A DNA stretch of 64,000 bases from Bacteroidales bacterium (GTDB taxonomy: Bacteria; Bacteroidota; Bacteroidia; Bacteroidales; FEN-979), in the NCBI GenBank assembly GCA_025355465.1, contig JANXZO010000020.1, positions 62,001 through 126,000 of the forward strand, written 5' to 3'. The notes under the pieces are model-generated. The model did not search any database and was not told the origin of the DNA. It saw nothing but the letters and a program-made list of their open reading frames with translations. Numbering within the stretch: position 1 is the first letter of the stretch; each line of letters begins with the position of its first letter. Of the stretch, positions 41,595 to 49,650 are shown in pieces. Position numbers and translations under genes: made by a program.

Positions 41595-41680
41595 CGCGAT
41601 ATCGCCACAGATGCTAATTCCTCCTTTCCTTGTCAATTGCATGGTTTTACATTTGTGGTGAATTTGGAAAATTGGGGAAA

Positions 41681-42082
41681 ATGAAAACTTATTTTACTTG
41701 TGTGTCTGGGATGACCCGAAGGTTACTTTTCGGTCTTGCTATCTTGATGATGTCTCAGGCAGGGTGCAAGAAGGAGATAGATTCTGCTATCCCTGCAAGT
41801 AATCCGGAATCAGTTAATTCGATGGTGGAACTGAAAGTGGCCCCGGACTTTAACTGGAAAACCACGCGGGATGTGTCAATAAGCCTGACTGCTGCAAAGC
41901 ATGGAGCAGTTATTATTAAATCCTCCGCGGGGAGTATTTATGAAAAGGCGATGCTTTTACCCGGAGAGCTGTATTTAACGATGCTGGCAATACCGTCATC
42001 GGAGCAATTTGTGATTCTGGTTTTTGGTGGAAAAAGCTACGAGGTGAAAATTGCCGGGGATAAAATATCATATACTTTTTAA
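41681..42082 (+). CDS. Small lipoprotein related to the N-terminus of LruC proteins
   Basis: 133 aa when started at the ATG at 41681, which follows a GGGGAAA run; a later ATG at 41711 is also possible, and an upstream ATG at 41630 overlaps the promoter. The signal peptide ends in the lipobox SQAGC (Cys29). The mature part (SMVELKVAPDFNWKTTRDV) aligns with the start of the LruC protein at 47441 (STLDLKVSSGFNWETTLEV); both also share ELYLxxL and a final YTF. So it is the detached N-terminal domain of the LruC family. Its stop overlaps the next start by one nt (TAATG), so the two are coupled. Confidence 0.75.
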   Translation: MKTYFTCVSGMTRRLLFGLAILMMSQAGCKKEIDSAIPASNPESVNSMVELKVAPDFNWKTTRDVSISLTAAKHGAVIIKSSAGSIYEKAMLLPGELYLTMLAIPSSEQFVILVFGGKSYEVKIAGDKISYTF

Positions 42083-43824
42083 TGCCCAGGATCATGAAAT
42101 TTCAAAGTCATTGTATGCGGAATTTTGCATTGCAGGTATTCTTTGTTATGCTGGTTTCTTTGAATGGTTTCGCTCAGGATCAGGTTTGCGATGTGACGAA
42201 ATCTAATGGTGGTGGCTTCACCACAACCATCCAATCGGTCATCTGCAATAATACGAACAACACACATACAATAGTTCTGAGTGTTGAGCATAACGGTTGT
42301 GGTGGAAATTTATGCAAAGCACTCACTTGTTATGCTATTCAGGCCGTGCCGGGAACCTACTCAAATGTAAGTGTACAGGTGATTTCAGGCACAATGACGT
42401 ATTCAAACATCTCAATGGGTCCCGACCTTGGCGGATCAATCCCATTCCAGGGTTTCAAGATCGACGGTACACAGGGAATAGGAAATGGGCAGGCCGGGAT
42501 GTTCACAGTAACCTATACCCTCACGGGAGGTTTGCAGGCACAACAAACATCGGCAAAGGCAAATTTGATGCTCCAGATCGCCAGTTTTAATGTAACCGAT
42601 TTTATCACTGTGATGAATTGCTACAACACAGGGTGTAACGGAGGAAATCCGACAGGACCAGATGCAATCAATGATAACTGTTCGACAGTCATCAACACAC
42701 AGGTAAATATCAATGTTTTGGCCAATGATATAGCAGGTTCAGGTACACTAGTTGCATCCTCAGTTGCATTTGTGGCAGGAACAGCCCCTTCTGTAACAAT
42801 CGGGGTATTCACCAAAAATAATTCTGGTGTTGTAACCTTTACTCCAGCCCTAAATTATTCAGGAACTGCAACTATCAACTACCAGGTGTGCGATATTAAT
42901 GCATTTTGTGACGTGGCAACCATAACCGTAACAATTTCAGCTCCGGGAAATGATTCTGATGGTGATGGCTGCCCGGACGATGTTGACGACTATCCAAACG
43001 ACCCAACCCGGTGCTTTGACAATTATTTCCCTGCCACCGGAAATGGAACCCTGGCCTTTGAGGACCTTTGGCCAGGTCAGGGTGACTATGATTTTAATGA
43101 CCTTGTATGTGATTACCGGTTTAAAACGGTAACCAACAGTTCAAACAAAATTGTGGAAATATTCGGAACATTCACTATAAAAGCTTTCGGAGCTTCACTT
43201 CACAATGGTTTTGGATTCCAGTTTCCGAATAATATCATACAGTCAGGCGATATGACTATCACTGGTTTTGACCTTCAGGAGGGTTATATCTCCCTTAATG
43301 CTCAAGGGTTGGAAACTGGACAGAATAAACCCACAGTCATAGTTTTTGATGATGTTTTTAACCTGATGAAGGCACCAGGGGTGGGAATCGGTGTCAATAC
43401 TACACCTGGAGCGCCCTATGTTACACCTGCTTCCGTTACTGTTCATATGATTTTTCCCACACCTAAATATACCATGAATCAGGTGAATCTTTCCAATTTT
43501 AATCCATTCCTGATCGTCGGTTTGAATCGCGGTATTGAAGTGCACCTGCCTGATTATTTGCCAACCGGCCTTGCCAGTGCTGATTATTTTGGTAAAGCCC
43601 AGGACCGTTCGATTCCCTCCCAGGGCCGTTATTACCGTACAGAGAATAACCTGCCATGGGCGATCAATATCTGCCAGAATTTTGCATACCCGAAAGAGAC
43701 CATCGATATTGTGAATACATACAACCATTTTGTTCCATGGGCAATTTCCGGTGGGCTTTCATTTCCTGACTGGTACATGGACAAACCGGGTTATAGAAAT
43801 GCGGAAAATGTTTATCAGCCATGA
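42082..43824 (+). CDS. Secreted LruC-domain protein with Ig/cadherin-like module
   Basis: 580-aa exported protein. Start options are 42082, 42094 and 42115; all keep the signal peptide (FALQVFFVMLVSLNGFAQ). After a 150-residue beta domain (DVTKSNGGGFTTTIQSVICN) comes a cadherin- or Big-like module (PDAINDNCSTVINTQ, TFTPALNYSGTATINYQVCD), then a Ca-binding-like Asp-rich stretch (DSDGDGCPDDVDDYPNDP). The LruC domain (about 320-580) begins AFEDLWPGQGDYDFNDLV. It lacks a lipobox, unlike the second LruC protein of the cluster. LruC proteins are secreted or surface proteins of poorly known role. Confidence 0.85.
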   Translation: MPRIMKFQSHCMRNFALQVFFVMLVSLNGFAQDQVCDVTKSNGGGFTTTIQSVICNNTNNTHTIVLSVEHNGCGGNLCKALTCYAIQAVPGTYSNVSVQVISGTMTYSNISMGPDLGGSIPFQGFKIDGTQGIGNGQAGMFTVTYTLTGGLQAQQTSAKANLMLQIASFNVTDFITVMNCYNTGCNGGNPTGPDAINDNCSTVINTQVNINVLANDIAGSGTLVASSVAFVAGTAPSVTIGVFTKNNSGVVTFTPALNYSGTATINYQVCDINAFCDVATITVTISAPGNDSDGDGCPDDVDDYPNDPTRCFDNYFPATGNGTLAFEDLWPGQGDYDFNDLVCDYRFKTVTNSSNKIVEIFGTFTIKAFGASLHNGFGFQFPNNIIQSGDMTITGFDLQEGYISLNAQGLETGQNKPTVIVFDDVFNLMKAPGVGIGVNTTPGAPYVTPASVTVHMIFPTPKYTMNQVNLSNFNPFLIVGLNRGIEVHLPDYLPTGLASADYFGKAQDRSIPSQGRYYRTENNLPWAINICQNFAYPKETIDIVNTYNHFVPWAISGGLSFPDWYMDKPGYRNAENVYQP

Positions 43825-43889: not shown

Positions 43890-45356
43890 ATGCAAATGAA
43901 CCGAATATTCGTACTTGGATTCTTTGTTTGGGGATTTATTGTTTTAACCGGCTGTAATAAGCTCGAAATCGATAAAACAAATCAGTCTAACCAGGGTGTG
44001 ATATTCTCCATTGCACCCGGAGCAAATCTGGGTAACCTTAAATCTACGGATACCATTAATTGCATCAATTCATCAGCCGATTATGCAACGGCCGTCATCG
44101 ATGACTCAACTTACCATATCGATGTGTTTTATATCGGCGGCATGCCTTATACAAACTCACTGTTTCTTCTTGCCGGTTACCACACTCTTAAAGAGTTCAC
44201 GCTGTGGAATGACAACAATACACCAAATAATGTAACTGACGATGTGATGTTGTCGGCTTCACCCCATGCAGGAAGCAACTATGCTCCTTATGTGGTTTCA
44301 CCATTGAATATTCCATTTACCATTGAATCTTTCAAAAAGGTTGAGTTACCGGTAGAGGTAATATGTTACGAAATGGATCACTTTACCGATTTTGGGTTCA
44401 CTTATTTCCAAATACATCAGGTAGTTGTGCGGGAAGAGACATTTTTCGGGGATCTCTGCATCAAGAGTACAGCCGATTATGTAGGTTCGCTCTATGCGGG
44501 GCAGTCAGGCGGACTAAAACTCGATATGCCAGCTATTTTTAAAATTGAAGTTTACAGGAATGGGACTTTACAGCAAACCTTCAGTAATGAAACCTGGAAA
44601 GGTGAAGGCCAGCCATTAAAAGTCACTTATGGAGACTATCTGAACCAGGTCGACCATTTTGAATTCAAACTATATGTCTTATTAAGAAAGGATGCTGCAT
44701 TTTATTACACTTATCTTTATAGCTGGGCCTTTGACGACGACCAGATTATCCCCCAGGGAAATGATGGAATTGTTGATTTTACGGTTGGCAATTGTAATCC
44801 TTCTTCAGATATTTTACTCCCTAGCTGGTTGAATCTGCCAGCAACATGCAATTATAAATTTAGTTCCAATTACGCCCCTGGTTCAAAGGGAGGCTATGTA
44901 GATGCTACCCTCTCCGGCTTCAGTAATGTATATGATATCACTACCGGAACGTATGCTTCATATGGCGCAGACCACACCACAAGCATCCCTTTCGGACAAA
45001 CCCTGGCAATGGCCGTATACTCCTCCCTTTACCAGAACTTGTTACCTACAGGTTTGAAAAATACAAAATGGGCAAAAATCAATTGGATCATGAACCACCT
45101 TACTCTCTATCCTGGATATAAATGGTATGATGTACAAGGGGCAATATGGTTGATGGACACCCCGGCATGGAACGGACAAGCTTTTATGGGTGTTCCGGCA
45201 CTTAGTACAATGCATTGGGCCCAACAAATGTATAATGATGCCTTGATAAACGGTGTCAATTACAATGTGCCTGCAGGTGGCACAGCGGCGCTGATATTGT
45301 TGCCATCTAACCAATCGAACATGGTCCAGATCGTCTTTGTCAAGACGGGCAGCTGA
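43890..45356 (+). CDS. Lipoprotein with degenerate thioester-like domain
   Basis: 488-aa lipoprotein (lipobox VLTGC, Cys22). The N-terminal 340 residues are two beta-rich parts shared with the 45714 protein (SIAPGANLGNLKSTDTINC, FEFKLYVLLRKDAAFYY). The C-terminal 160 residues follow the order of thioester domains: SNVYDITTGTYASYGADH, KWAKINWIMNHL, YDVQGAIWLMD, ending in a QIVFVKTG strand. The position of the reactive Cys is Gly359 (YGADH), while the partner Gln416 remains, so no thioester can form. It lies 65 bp after the first LruC gene without a terminator between, so it is probably co-transcribed. Otherwise a family I do not recognise by name. Confidence 0.75.
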   Translation: MQMNRIFVLGFFVWGFIVLTGCNKLEIDKTNQSNQGVIFSIAPGANLGNLKSTDTINCINSSADYATAVIDDSTYHIDVFYIGGMPYTNSLFLLAGYHTLKEFTLWNDNNTPNNVTDDVMLSASPHAGSNYAPYVVSPLNIPFTIESFKKVELPVEVICYEMDHFTDFGFTYFQIHQVVVREETFFGDLCIKSTADYVGSLYAGQSGGLKLDMPAIFKIEVYRNGTLQQTFSNETWKGEGQPLKVTYGDYLNQVDHFEFKLYVLLRKDAAFYYTYLYSWAFDDDQIIPQGNDGIVDFTVGNCNPSSDILLPSWLNLPATCNYKFSSNYAPGSKGGYVDATLSGFSNVYDITTGTYASYGADHTTSIPFGQTLAMAVYSSLYQNLLPTGLKNTKWAKINWIMNHLTLYPGYKWYDVQGAIWLMDTPAWNGQAFMGVPALSTMHWAQQMYNDALINGVNYNVPAGGTAALILLPSNQSNMVQIVFVKTGS

Positions 45357-45713: not shown

Positions 45714-47204
45714 ATGAAAACAATGAAAACAATGAAAAATTACCTGATCCTGGTTTTGACCGTCGTGGGATTTTTTGCAGTTACAAGCTGTAATAAAATC
45801 GACAGCACTGACCAGTCACTTGGCTCACAAGGTGTCAGTTTTTCCATTACTCCCGGTGCTAACCTCGGAAACCTGAAATCAACCGACACGATCAACTGTT
45901 ACACGGTCACAGCAGACTATGTAAAAGCAACCATCGATGATTCGACGTATAAAATTGACGTCTTTTACATTAATGGCTCCCCATATTCAAATACGTTGAA
46001 ACTGAATCCGGGAACACACATGCTAAAAGAATTCACATTGTGGAGCGACAACAACACGCCCAACAATACTGCAGACGATATCATGCTTGCAGCAACTCCA
46101 CATGCAGGCAGTGCATATGCTCCTTATGTTATCTCATCTCTCAATATTCCTTTTGTGGTTGAATCATTTAAAAAGGTTGAATTGCCAGTTGAGGTCGTAT
46201 GCTATGAAGAGGATCATTTCTCTAATTTCGGATTTACTTATTTCCAGATCAGTCAGGTAGTAATCCGCGAAGAGACTTTCTTCGGCGACATTTGTATCAA
46301 GCAGCTTAGTGATTATACCGGTTCACTCTATGCCCAACAATCTAACGGCCTTCAACTTGATATGCCCGCCATCGCAAAGATCGAAGTGTACCGGAATGGT
46401 ATTTTGCAGCAGACTTTCAGTAATGAAGCCTGGAAAGGTGAAGGACAGCCTTTGAAAGTTACTTACGGGGATTATCTCAATGAAGTTGATCATTTTGAAT
46501 TCAAACTCTACATCCTTGTCCGGAAAGATGCTGGCTTCTCGTACGTATATTTCCATAGCTGGACATTTGATGACGCACAGGTAATTCCCCAGGGTACAGA
46601 CGGTATTGTCGACTTCGTTCTTGGCAATTGTGTTCCCGGCGCCGACCTCGTAATTCCGCCCTGGATGAACCTTCCGTCGACCTGTACTTACCAGATTACT
46701 GGTAACTATGCTCCGGGAGCAAAAGGTGGGTACGTTGATGCCAGCCTCACAGGCTTCAATAATGTATATGATATTACAACCGGGCTTTGGGCATCTTTCT
46801 GCGCCGACCATGCAACGAACATTAACACGAGCCCTTATTCTATGACCGTATATTCATCACTTTACCAGAATAAGTTGCCGGTTTTTGCACAGAGCACTAA
46901 GTGGGCCAAGATCAACTGGATCATGAACCATCTCGACTGGTATCCCGGTTACAAATGGTACGATCTTCAGGGTGCCATCTGGTTATTCGACGTTCCTGCG
47001 TGGACCGGTGTAGCCGAAGGGGGTGTTCCTGCAATCAGTACGATGCAGTGGGCGCAAAAAATGCACGATGATGCCAATACTTACGGAGATAATTATAAAG
47101 TTCCTTCCGGTGGATGGGCATCCGTAATATTCATTCCTGCCGGAACCCCCGGCGGCCAGTTGGCTCCAACAGTACAAACCATGTTTGTGCGTGTTGACCC
47201 CTGA
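45714..47204 (+). CDS. Lipoprotein with predicted intact internal-thioester domain
   Basis: 496-aa lipoprotein (lipobox AVTSC, Cys26), paralogue of the 43890 product. Start is uncertain among three in-frame ATGs at 45714, 45723 and 45732, which form a MKTMKTMK repeat. The N-terminal 340 residues are beta-rich and unnamed. The C-terminal domain fits the internal-thioester (TED) surface domains of Gram-positive adhesins: reactive-type motif SFCADH with Cys363, then TKWAKINWIMNH, then LQGAIWLFD with Gln419, and a closing segment with SGGWASVIF and VQTMFVRV. The Cys-to-Gln distance of 56 residues and the F-C-A and L-Q-x-A-I contexts match the known signatures. Inferred role: covalent attachment to a partner surface. 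An own regulated promoter and two downstream hairpins delimit the gene. Confidence 0.78.
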   Translation: MKTMKTMKNYLILVLTVVGFFAVTSCNKIDSTDQSLGSQGVSFSITPGANLGNLKSTDTINCYTVTADYVKATIDDSTYKIDVFYINGSPYSNTLKLNPGTHMLKEFTLWSDNNTPNNTADDIMLAATPHAGSAYAPYVISSLNIPFVVESFKKVELPVEVVCYEEDHFSNFGFTYFQISQVVIREETFFGDICIKQLSDYTGSLYAQQSNGLQLDMPAIAKIEVYRNGILQQTFSNEAWKGEGQPLKVTYGDYLNEVDHFEFKLYILVRKDAGFSYVYFHSWTFDDAQVIPQGTDGIVDFVLGNCVPGADLVIPPWMNLPSTCTYQITGNYAPGAKGGYVDASLTGFNNVYDITTGLWASFCADHATNINTSPYSMTVYSSLYQNKLPVFAQSTKWAKINWIMNHLDWYPGYKWYDLQGAIWLFDVPAWTGVAEGGVPAISTMQWAQKMHDDANTYGDNYKVPSGGWASVIFIPAGTPGGQLAPTVQTMFVRVDP

Positions 47205-47440: not shown

Positions 47441-49621
47441 ATGATCATGAAATCCTCGAAGATCTTTTTAAGTGCCTTTCTGCTGCTCTTTGGGTTCCTG
47501 TTTACCGGATGTAAAAAAGAGTTGCTGACAGATGCTGCCGAACCTGGATCCAATGTTAACTCTACGCTTGACCTTAAAGTTTCTTCAGGTTTCAACTGGG
47601 AGACCACCCTTGAAGTGAACCTTGCCCTCGGTATGAACCTTCCCGTGGTAACCTACGAGTTTAATGTTATCAATGTTTACGAAGGAGACCCTTCCAAAGG
47701 CGGGAAGCTGGTATTCACCGGTTATGCTGCAAATGATTTCGCCATGGTTGCCAGCGTTAGAATTCCAACGGCAGTTTCCGAACTTTACCTTCAGCTTACG
47801 CCGCTCAACGCAGCCACCCAGATTGTAATTGTGCCCGTTGCGGCGAATATCAATTATACATTCACGGAACAAGGTGTCGGAAAAAGCCTGAATAATTCAG
47901 ATTCCGGACCCAACTGCGGAGCCGCAACGCTTGCCTATACACTGTCCGGAACGCAAAATAAAACGATCAACGACGGACAGACCTATTATATAACAGGTTC
48001 TGCATCCGGTTCAATTGATGTAAAGCACGGAACACTGCAGATTTGTGGCACCTACAATGGAATACTAAATATGGGTGACAACAAAGATGAAAGTACTGTA
48101 ATTATTTCATCAACGGGCACAGCAACCTTGTCTTCCATGTCGAAGGATGATCATTCAACCCTTGATAATTATGGCACCCTCTCCATCTCCGGAAACTTCT
48201 CACCGAAAGACCTGGTCCGCAATTTCGGAACCATGTCTGTCGGCAGTTCTTACCTCATGAACAGCGGCGGGCCGCACAATCCTGAGCTTATCAATTCCGG
48301 TTTGCTTACCATCGGTAATGAATTCAATGTTCATGAACAGCTGACCAATAACGGAACAATTGAAGTGACGGGGCATATGAATTGCAACAACAGTCATGTT
48401 TTTAATGGTTGCAAAATTATTGTACACCTCGATTTTCACCTCAATAATGCCGAATTCACCAATCAGTCAGGATACCTGAAGGTTTACCAGGAAACATTTA
48501 TTCAGGGCGGACAATCATTCATGAAGCTGATTGACCAGTCGATGATCTCTACCTATGATCTGTCGATGAACGCCGACATTACCGGAAGTACTACAAACGC
48601 TACAAAGAATGAAGTGAAAGTGACTCATGACCTTCGGTTTGACGGACCTAATGTGGTCAAGGGACCGGTGGAAGTGGCCCAAACCAATGGCGTACTTGCC
48701 AATGGCAGCGCTTCCAATTTTACAAACGGGGCTACCTTCGTAAGCTTTGCAAATATTCTCAACACCATCGACGCTTCACAGTGCAACCCTGAAGGCGTTA
48801 ATCCTCCTCCACCGCCACCTCCTTCGCTCACCGACAACATTACTACCGGTACCCTGGTGTATGAAGACCTGTGGCCAAGCAAAGGTGATTATGATCTTAA
48901 CGACCTTGTTGTGTACTATAACTATAATCTCAGAACCAATAGCCAGAACAAGGTAGTGGACATCATTGCCAAATTCTATGTGAAGGCTGCCGGTGCAGGC
49001 CTAAAGAGCGGCTTTGGATTCCAAATAAACGCGCTTACTCCCGCTCAAATCGAATCAGTTAGCGGAGCCAGTCTCACGCAGGGTTATATCGCCCTTAACG
49101 CAAACGGAACCGAGGCAGGTCAGGGCAAAGCTGTTGTGATAGCCTGGGACAATACCGATAATGTGATCAATCGGGTGGCTCCTTCCAGTTTTTTCAATAC
49201 GCTTCCTGGTACGGGTGTTGGCACTGCTGATACGGTTACTATGATAATACATCTTACGACCCCGCTGTTGACAACGGTGGTTGGCACTGCTCCTTTTAAT
49301 CCCTTCCTGATAAAGGGAATGGATCGCGGTTTAGAAATTCACTTACCTGATTATATACCGACTTCGTTGGCCGATCAAACCTATTTTGGAACTTCCGACG
49401 ACAACTCAAACAGTGGAATTGGCAGATATTATAAAACATCCTCCAATCTTCCCTGGGCCCTGAACATCCCTGTAGCCTTCGATTATCCCTTCGAATACAT
49501 TGATGTAACTCAAGCTTATACACATTTTGCTGCCTGGGCACAGTCCGGTGGCACCTCTTATCCGCAGTGGTATTCCAATAATGCCGGTTACCGTGATTTA
49601 AGCAAGATCTGGCAACCTTGA
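47441..49621 (+). CDS. LruC-domain lipoprotein
   Basis: 726-aa lipoprotein (lipobox LFTGC, Cys24; the ATG at 47447 is an alternative start). The N-terminal domain (STLDLKVSSGFNWETTLEV) matches the separate 133-aa lipoprotein at 41681. Residues about 170-440 form a repetitive, beta-helix-like region rich in Asn, Gly and Ser with alternating short strands (TLDNYGTLSISGNF, ELINSGLLTIGNEF, QLTNNGTIEVTGHM). A seven-proline linker (GVNPPPPPPPSLTD) leads to the LruC domain from about 473 (VYEDLWPSKGDYDLNDLV), which aligns with that of the 42082 protein to the end. A surface or outer-membrane-attached role is likely; binding partner unknown. Confidence 0.85.
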   Translation: MIMKSSKIFLSAFLLLFGFLFTGCKKELLTDAAEPGSNVNSTLDLKVSSGFNWETTLEVNLALGMNLPVVTYEFNVINVYEGDPSKGGKLVFTGYAANDFAMVASVRIPTAVSELYLQLTPLNAATQIVIVPVAANINYTFTEQGVGKSLNNSDSGPNCGAATLAYTLSGTQNKTINDGQTYYITGSASGSIDVKHGTLQICGTYNGILNMGDNKDESTVIISSTGTATLSSMSKDDHSTLDNYGTLSISGNFSPKDLVRNFGTMSVGSSYLMNSGGPHNPELINSGLLTIGNEFNVHEQLTNNGTIEVTGHMNCNNSHVFNGCKIIVHLDFHLNNAEFTNQSGYLKVYQETFIQGGQSFMKLIDQSMISTYDLSMNADITGSTTNATKNEVKVTHDLRFDGPNVVKGPVEVAQTNGVLANGSASNFTNGATFVSFANILNTIDASQCNPEGVNPPPPPPPSLTDNITTGTLVYEDLWPSKGDYDLNDLVVYYNYNLRTNSQNKVVDIIAKFYVKAAGAGLKSGFGFQINALTPAQIESVSGASLTQGYIALNANGTEAGQGKAVVIAWDNTDNVINRVAPSSFFNTLPGTGVGTADTVTMIIHLTTPLLTTVVGTAPFNPFLIKGMDRGLEIHLPDYIPTSLADQTYFGTSDDNSNSGIGRYYKTSSNLPWALNIPVAFDYPFEYIDVTQAYTHFAAWAQSGGTSYPQWYSNNAGYRDLSKIWQP

Positions 49622-49628
49622 TAATATA

Positions 49629-49650
49629 CCGGTGGAGTGGTTACCACCGG
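49629..49650 (+). other. Hairpin after the second LruC gene
   Basis: CCGGTGG / CCACCGG stem of 7 bp with an 8-nt loop, 7 nt after the stop codon, without a T-run. It precedes the true terminator. Confidence 0.5.

Follow-up and report, generated by a model that had tools for sequence, protein, structure and literature searches.

A candidate thioester domain, divergent from known families, in a Bacteroidota lipoprotein

Results

Overall architecture of P0001

P0001, a lipoprotein encoded in the window (the whole 64,000-nucleotide stretch of DNA analyzed here), probably ends in a divergent class-I-like thioester domain (TED), in which a thioester between Cys363 and Gln488 would serve covalent adhesion. 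We put the probability of this reading at about 0.8; the bond, the exposure of the protein, the adhesion and its target are what we infer. We consider the formation of the thioester itself quite probable, and covalent attachment as the function of P0001 somewhat better than an even bet. The preliminary description had already read the C-terminal domain of this Bacteroidota lipoprotein, its free end, as TED-like, and this assignment is backed by motifs, profile comparison and fold comparison. The relevant features of P0001 are listed below.

45714..47204, + strand: P0001, open reading frame (ORF) of 496 aa (ORF call and translation)
46641..47201, + strand: TED-like domain, residues 310-496 (AlphaFold model, structural comparison and profile-profile match)
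46800..46802, + strand: Cys363, codon TGC, motif F-C-A-D, proposed thioester Cys, kept in 61/63 domains
46968..46970, + strand: Gln419, codon CAG, helical motif LQGAIWLFD, not the predicted bond former, kept in 63/63 domains
47175..47177, + strand: Gln488, codon CAA, strand motif V-Q-T-M-F, proposed thioester Gln, kept in 62/63 domains

By eye, the N terminus of P0001 reads as a signal peptide and a lipobox (TSC26NK, with Cys26), and no clear acidic export signal follows the lipobox. A β-rich region spans residues ~40-305, with strands seen in a poor full-length model. P0001 is predicted to be an outer-surface lipoprotein, and its exposure at the surface is likewise a prediction. The translation contains SFCADH, KINWIMNH, LQGAIW and VQTMFVRV. 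The first three, with Cys363, Gln419 and the 56 residues between these two, had been reported earlier and all are present. VQTMF had been recorded merely as part of a β-rich end; the motif is there, but its status as a key motif was overlooked.

Gln488 is the predicted partner of Cys363

Passages of PMC4450167 describe the TED motifs: the Cys lies in [YFL]CΦζ, and the bond-forming Gln in a weak strand motif, ΦQζΦΦ. They also give a helical motif, TQxxΦWΦxζ, whose Gln and Trp are both dispensable for bond formation. The P0001 motifs follow the TED order. FCAD fits the Cys motif. LQGAIWLFD fits the helical motif at all positions except the T and sits in a helix of the predicted model. VQTMF fits the strand motif, and residues 488-493 form a strand in the model. 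The distance from Cys363 to Gln488 is 125 residues, within a family range of 120-168 (median 126, 53 domains). Corresponding spacings given in the same passages are 129 for CpTIE, 152 for SfbI and 153 for PnTIE, and an excerpt of PMC6194298 gives 195 for the class II BaTIE (Cys71-Gln266). The 56-residue gap is an ordinary spacing between the Cys and the helical motif, because this distance is 51-57 residues in 12 Pfam-detected TEDs of the phylum.

Judged from the motifs, the thioester partner of Cys363 should be Gln488, not Gln419. The preliminary description had proposed a bond between Cys363 and Gln419 and had offered a large distance between them as a refutation. That distance is the wrong test, because LQGAIWLFD is the helical motif and VQTMF the strand motif. 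Gln419 is invariant (63/63), as expected if it formed the bond. However, the helical Gln is dispensable for the bond in the TEDs covered by the passages of PMC4450167, and the 56 residues fall in the usual Cys-to-helix range. One relative, L121:807-2411, lacks both the Cys and the strand Gln (TATYNLDH, with Asn for Cys; PNLIVTF, with Ile for Gln) and keeps the helix with its Gln intact (DIQGALW). This joint loss, a single case, points to the Cys and strand Gln pairing known from TEDs. A Cys363-Gln419 thioester is thus very improbable, and the residue to mutate is corrected from Gln419 to Gln488.

The three residues are conserved across the family

In our first alignment (A1), which contains 21 non-duplicate members with the C-terminal domain, the Cys is kept in 20 and both Gln residues in all 21. 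The sole exception is the window paralogue P0002, with Gly359. A1 left out L015 and L021-L024 (other C-terminal domain), L025 (short N-terminal fragment), and L027 and L028, which share their contigs with L008 and L014. A wider alignment of 53 domains, the most distant of them 14-24% identical to P0001, has both Gln residues, in the helix and in the last strand, in all 53 rows and the Cys in 52; P0002 is again the Cys exception. Outside this set are duplicates (L048, L050, L051, L062), cut pieces (L071:1-921, L061:3187-3588) and L047 (genome G250, E 0.009, two internal stops). Ten domains found later and unused before, from seven further genomes of the order plus one more domain of family f48, keep the Cys in 9/10, the helix Gln in 10/10 and the strand Gln in 9/10. 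They remain from 19 new rows, of which eight were already among the 53 and one, L104, was removed; L104 (genome G372, long repeat protein, E 6.6e-5) is a false match in which neither Gln is aligned.

Counted over all 63 domains, which come from several families of the phylum, 61 keep the Cys, all 63 keep the helix Gln and 62 keep the strand Gln; the register of the last Gln is uncertain in L066 and L072 (SSQNGG). Of 36 phylum matches of a 24-row profile, 32 are within the 53 domains and one is L117, read afterwards; the other three (G326:C1:269400, G271:C14:22587 and G381:C5:203346) are left out of the domain counts, as is G365:C105:1471, a match of the 40-domain profile. The residue before the Cys is W in 39/53 domains and Y, F or L in 11/53. 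Other Cys positions in A1 are partial (10/21, 8/21 and 7/21), and none is conserved throughout. Because the Cys and both Gln residues are conserved across the family, the motifs of P0001 are real and constrained, far beyond chance.

The domain is a distant relative of PF08341

Neither P0001 nor P0002 has a PF08341 match in a Pfam search (E up to 1). PF08341 is also without a match in the 21 close domains (E up to 10), in ten more distant relatives and in the genome of the window. The NCBIfam TQXA model (TIGR03934) missed nine distant relatives; among the ten proteins tested it matched only L030, a Pfam-TED control. No Pfam or NCBIfam family scores above its cut-off for P0001 or P0002. A sequence search of the PDB gave no match to any TED, and the PDB matches of a 40-domain profile are unrelated. 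PF22374 (Clospo_01618-like) aligns with residues 375-422 of P0001 below its cut-off (E 0.0048, 17.5 bits vs 27); its match in the same genome is also below the cut-off, with a better score elsewhere. An NCBIfam RepE match to a window protein (E 0.17) is noise.

PF08341 itself scores above its cut-off in 22/296 phylum genomes and 0/14 control genomes, with 27 domains in total. Twelve of the 27 were compared. They contain FYCID, ITYILNN and VQLAIWHF, and their last-strand Gln is not clear. An alignment of these Bacteroidota domains reaches PDB TEDs weakly (5dcq, E 0.034; 6fwv, 0.063; 4c0z, 0.17). The proteins L030-L041 are large putative adhesins, and the region downstream of the TED resembles intimin Ig-like domains (weak PDB matches, E 0.002).

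Profile-profile comparison connects the two groups. With hhalign, 40 of the 53 family domains (profile A5) match the 12 Pfam-detected TEDs with a probability of 82.3, an E-value of 1e-5 and a score of 41.0. In control runs, 300 column shuffles scored 12.7 on average (sd 2.4, maximum 22.2) and the reversed profile 15.0. In this match the Cys residues of the two groups coincide, as do the helical Gln residues; the aligned region does not include the last-strand Gln. Shallower profiles, run against a longer version of the TED alignment, gave weaker matches (21 rows, probability 2.0; 24 rows, probability 31.8, E 4.9e-4), and the Cys and helical Gln were aligned each time. In sequence terms, the P0001 domain is a divergent relative of PF08341. 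We set it beside that family rather than in it because no score exceeds the gathering threshold.

The predicted fold resembles that of TEDs

The full-length AlphaFold model of P0001, based on six sequences, is poor (mean pLDDT 49). With the same six sequences, residues 310-496 gave a mean pLDDT of 71.7 and a pTM of 0.69. In local numbering, strands at 14-24, 31-37, 48-53 and 66-72 are followed by helices at 87-96, 106-117 and 138-148 and by strands at 159-166 and 179-184. Cys363 is residue 54, Gln419 residue 110, in the helix 106-117 (415-426), and Gln488 residue 179. The model is weakest around Cys363, with pLDDT <50 at local positions 51-57. Its order of strands, three helices and strands is the one that passages of PMC4450167 describe for TEDs, and the structural scores are moderate.

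Foldseek alone found nothing significant; its best TED, 5a0n, ranked fifth (E 2.9, TM 0.36). VIA-align was run on the top 1000 Foldseek entries, of which 994 were aligned and 18 listed. The best nine of these 18 are 5a0d (Z 5.3), 2xic (5.2), 4bug (5.2), 5dcq (5.0), 2xid (5.0), 4c0z (5.0), 5a0g (4.7), 5a0n (4.4) and 5a0l (4.0); the next entry, at 2.7, is unrelated. The nine align over 125-149 residues with an rmsd of 4.0-5.1 and 7-12% identity. They represent five proteins: the C. perfringens TED, Cpa, FNE, PnTIE and SfbI. Four of the nine titles say thioester domain. FNE (5dcq) we take to be a TED protein, and Cpa (2xic, 2xid, 4bug, 4c0z) is one according to an excerpt of PMC6194298. A Z below 8 is weak alone, but nine of nine best entries from one kind of domain is not weak. 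Comparison of a predicted structure with TED structures had been suggested as a check, and with nine TED-bearing entries ahead of all others among the 18 listed (Z 4.0-5.3) its outcome favors the TED assignment. If the last strand is assumed to align without gaps, Gln488 is offset by two residues from the bond Gln of CpTIE, SfbI and PnTIE, as judged from alignment end points only.

P0001 lies in a conserved surface-protein locus beside a Cys-less paralogue

The neighbors of P0001 in the window include the following.

41630..42082, + strand: small putative lipoprotein, first gene of the cluster, without a family match, similar ORF in 7/12 regions
42082..43824, + strand: surface protein with an LruC domain (TIGR04456 / DUF4842) and a Big_9 Ig-like domain (Pfam, NCBIfam)
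43890..45356, + strand: P0002, tandem paralogue in which Gly359 (GGC) replaces the Cys and both Gln are kept (alignment, codon)
47441..49621, + strand: lipoprotein with an LruC domain (TIGR04456 / DUF4842) (Pfam, NCBIfam)

The gene order is the small ORF, the first LruC gene, P0002, P0001, the second LruC gene, an ORF at 49632, rpsL, rpsG and fusA, with uvrD divergent upstream. The ORF at 49632 is presumably methyltransferase-like, and we assign the names rpsL, rpsG, fusA and uvrD to the housekeeping genes. Among 12 regions of relatives, some of which end at contig ends or at the limits of the chosen stretch, LruC-like genes are found near the TED gene in 10 and uvrD in 9; the small ORF and the methyltransferase-like gene are each present in 7, and rpsL in 5. 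The L089 and L090 regions contain none of these neighbors. These comparisons suggest that a conserved locus of surface proteins is the usual setting of the TED lipoproteins. In the window, the TED pair has an LruC-domain (DUF4842) surface protein on either side, and both are conserved neighbors.

P0002 is 68% identical to P0001 over residues 7-478. It should be unable to form a thioester, because Gly replaces the Cys. The Cys-less L121:807-2411 also has a downstream neighbor, L121:2480-3970, with all three residues: Cys, helix Gln and strand Gln. In both pairs, the Cys is missing from the upstream copy, and P0002 has lost the Cys only. Next to an apparently active copy, a Cys-less one might act as a decoy or a co-receptor, or it might simply have decayed. 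Tandem TED pairs are found in 5 of the 12 regions (L081, L082, L083, L087, L088). We counted the loss of the Cys in P0002 against the TED reading, since the locus tolerates a dead copy.

Distribution of the family

Full-length P0001 has matches in 14/61 near genomes, counting its own, where the adjoining ORF 43890-45356 is the one further copy at E ≤0.001. Named MAG records also contain matches to P0001, at four loci; the record titles say Bacteroidales for three and Alphaproteobacteria for one. The locus in the Alphaproteobacteria record (L026, SACF01000006.1) is very similar to L027 of a Bacteroidales MAG, and the record is probably a mislabelled MAG.

A profile of 21 rows has matches in four of 395 phylum genomes at E ≤0.01, including that of the window. 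Two of the four belong to family f48 and encode single-domain lipoproteins (E 1e-4 to 5e-4). These are 17-21% identical to P0001 and contain WCIDW/WCIEW, NYLLN, an LQIAIW-like helix and VQTVF/GQIIV ends. Adding three f48 domains (24 rows) gave matches in 12/394 phylum genomes. The A5 profile matches 14/395 phylum genomes, own included and one of them the false match in G372, and 9/295 genomes of the order, own included. Its members in the order include those of seven further genomes outside the window's own family. Viral contigs searched with the 24-row alignment gave 93 stretches, none of which is a relative.

The f48 genomes contain one to six TED-like matches each. In some f48 proteins the TED is joined to HAF repeats (L065), to an SdrD_B-like region below its cut-off (L066) or to a region that by eye resembles a von Willebrand A domain (L073). 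The P0001-type N-terminal region is itself fused to a quite different C-terminal domain in L015 and L021-L024, which we take to resemble the Fibrobacter major paralogous domain. Such a combination would be expected if the P0001 TED is an exchangeable head. At L085, L086 and L091, the alternative-head version is found right beside the TED version, an apparent swapping of heads.

Discussion

Alternative explanations

The domain may adopt the TED fold and form no thioester, with Cys363 in a structural, disulfide or metal-binding role and the domain acting as a non-covalent binding head. The thioester of P0001 is an inferred bond, Cys-less P0002 and P0003 keep an intact reading frame, and some members have a Cys at other positions (10, 8 and 7 of 21). 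However, none of these further positions is shared by the whole family, the most frequent reaching 10/21, and the Cys and strand Gln are kept jointly down to 14-24% identity and were lost jointly once. We regard a TED fold with no thioester as improbable. That the resemblance to TEDs is convergent or accidental, arising from a chance Cys/Gln pattern on a common α/β arrangement, fits the weak Foldseek scores and the absence of a Pfam match to P0001. We give it very little credence, since 300 column shuffles reach at most 22.2 against 41.0 and the nine top structural entries of the 18 listed are all TED proteins. A complement-type thioester was set aside; an excerpt of PMC6194298 states that bacterial TEDs have neither sequence nor structural kinship with complement proteins.

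A different question is what the thioester would bind. Instead of mediating adhesion to a host, it might cross-link surface proteins of its own cluster (the LruC neighbors, for example), cells in a biofilm or partners in conjugation. LruC-like genes lie near in 10/12 regions, and conjugation in Bacillus subtilis benefits from a class II TED adhesin, according to a passage of PMC8092201. The gene neighbors may, however, be merely co-regulated surface proteins, and we judge such cross-linking unlikely, if less so than the alternatives above.

Model of covalent attachment and its implications

For adhesion through a Cys363-Gln488 thioester, we propose the following model. The exported domain would fold, and the side chains of Cys363 and Gln488 would condense with loss of ammonia, creating an internal thioester between the helical and β parts. 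The helix with Gln419 and Trp423 would hold the Cys backbone, as in known TEDs. A suitable amine (an amino group of lysine, glycan or polyamine) would then receive the acyl group of Gln488, and the resulting isopeptide-type bond would tie the cell to its target. The TED would be at the C terminus because the lipid anchor is at the N terminus, which puts it far from the anchor. This mirrors the Gram-positive arrangement of a C-terminal LPXTG and an N-terminal TED.

In a 2015 survey, TED candidates occur 'exclusively in Gram-positive bacteria' (passages of PMC4450167). Excerpts of a 2021 survey of fibrillar adhesins report that Bacteroidetes share many adhesive domains with Gram-positives, and name the TED for Firmicutes and Actinobacteria (PMC8286594). 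Parts of later studies extend TEDs in Firmicutes (2022; PMC9210967) and report isopeptide domains in Bacteroidota (2025; PMC12617251). PMC5817068 contains 'thioester domain', 'adhesin' and 'Bacteroidetes', and in its excerpts Bacteroidetes are named only for LysM. Among the matches listed from the open-licence literature, we found no paper describing a lipoprotein of Bacteroidota with a TED. The earlier suggestion of a new or little described Bacteroidota version holds only in part, since TEDs detectable by Pfam are already present in 22/296 phylum genomes.

There is an even chance, in our estimate, that P0001 represents a branch of Bacteroidota TEDs that Pfam and NCBIfam miss, carried by lipid-anchored outer-surface proteins in a conserved LruC locus and at least twice arranged as a tandem pair of dead and active copies. 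Covalent adhesion through a thioester would then not be a Gram-positive speciality, and the dead copies may modulate it as decoys or co-receptors. If true, a lipid-anchored TED in Gram-negative Bacteroidota would extend covalent adhesion to another type of cell envelope. The presumably active copy and its naturally Cys-less neighbor make a ready-made test pair.

Comparison with known thioester domains

P0001 shares with Gram-positive TEDs (PF08341, TIGR03934; SfbI, Cpa, CpTIE) the order and spacing of the motifs, the strand/three-helix/strand layout and a position at the end far from the anchor. Unlike them, it falls below Pfam and NCBIfam detection, has an N-terminal lipid anchor instead of LPXTG, carries the TED at its C terminus and belongs to a Gram-negative-type bacterium. 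Gram-positive TIE proteins differ further, as P0001 has no match to an isopeptide- or ester-domain family in Pfam or NCBIfam. Class II TEDs have a large β-sandwich insertion before the Gln, whereas the spacing in P0001 is 125 residues.

Within the phylum, the Pfam-detectable TEDs (L030-L041) have motifs (FYCID, ITYILNN, VQLAIWHF) that align with the family profile. Unlike P0001, they are parts of large proteins, with open frames of 490 to 2,263 aa, and the A4 family profile has no match in G069 and G079, two genomes with such TEDs. The short TED-like lipoproteins of f48 (L045, L046, L049, L052-L059, L063, L064) resemble P0001 in having WCID, NYLLN, LQIAIW and VQTVF or similar motifs, and a lipobox by eye. 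In contrast to P0001, their TED lies close behind the lipid anchor, with no equivalent of the P0001 N-terminal region, and in the longer f48 proteins other domains follow it.
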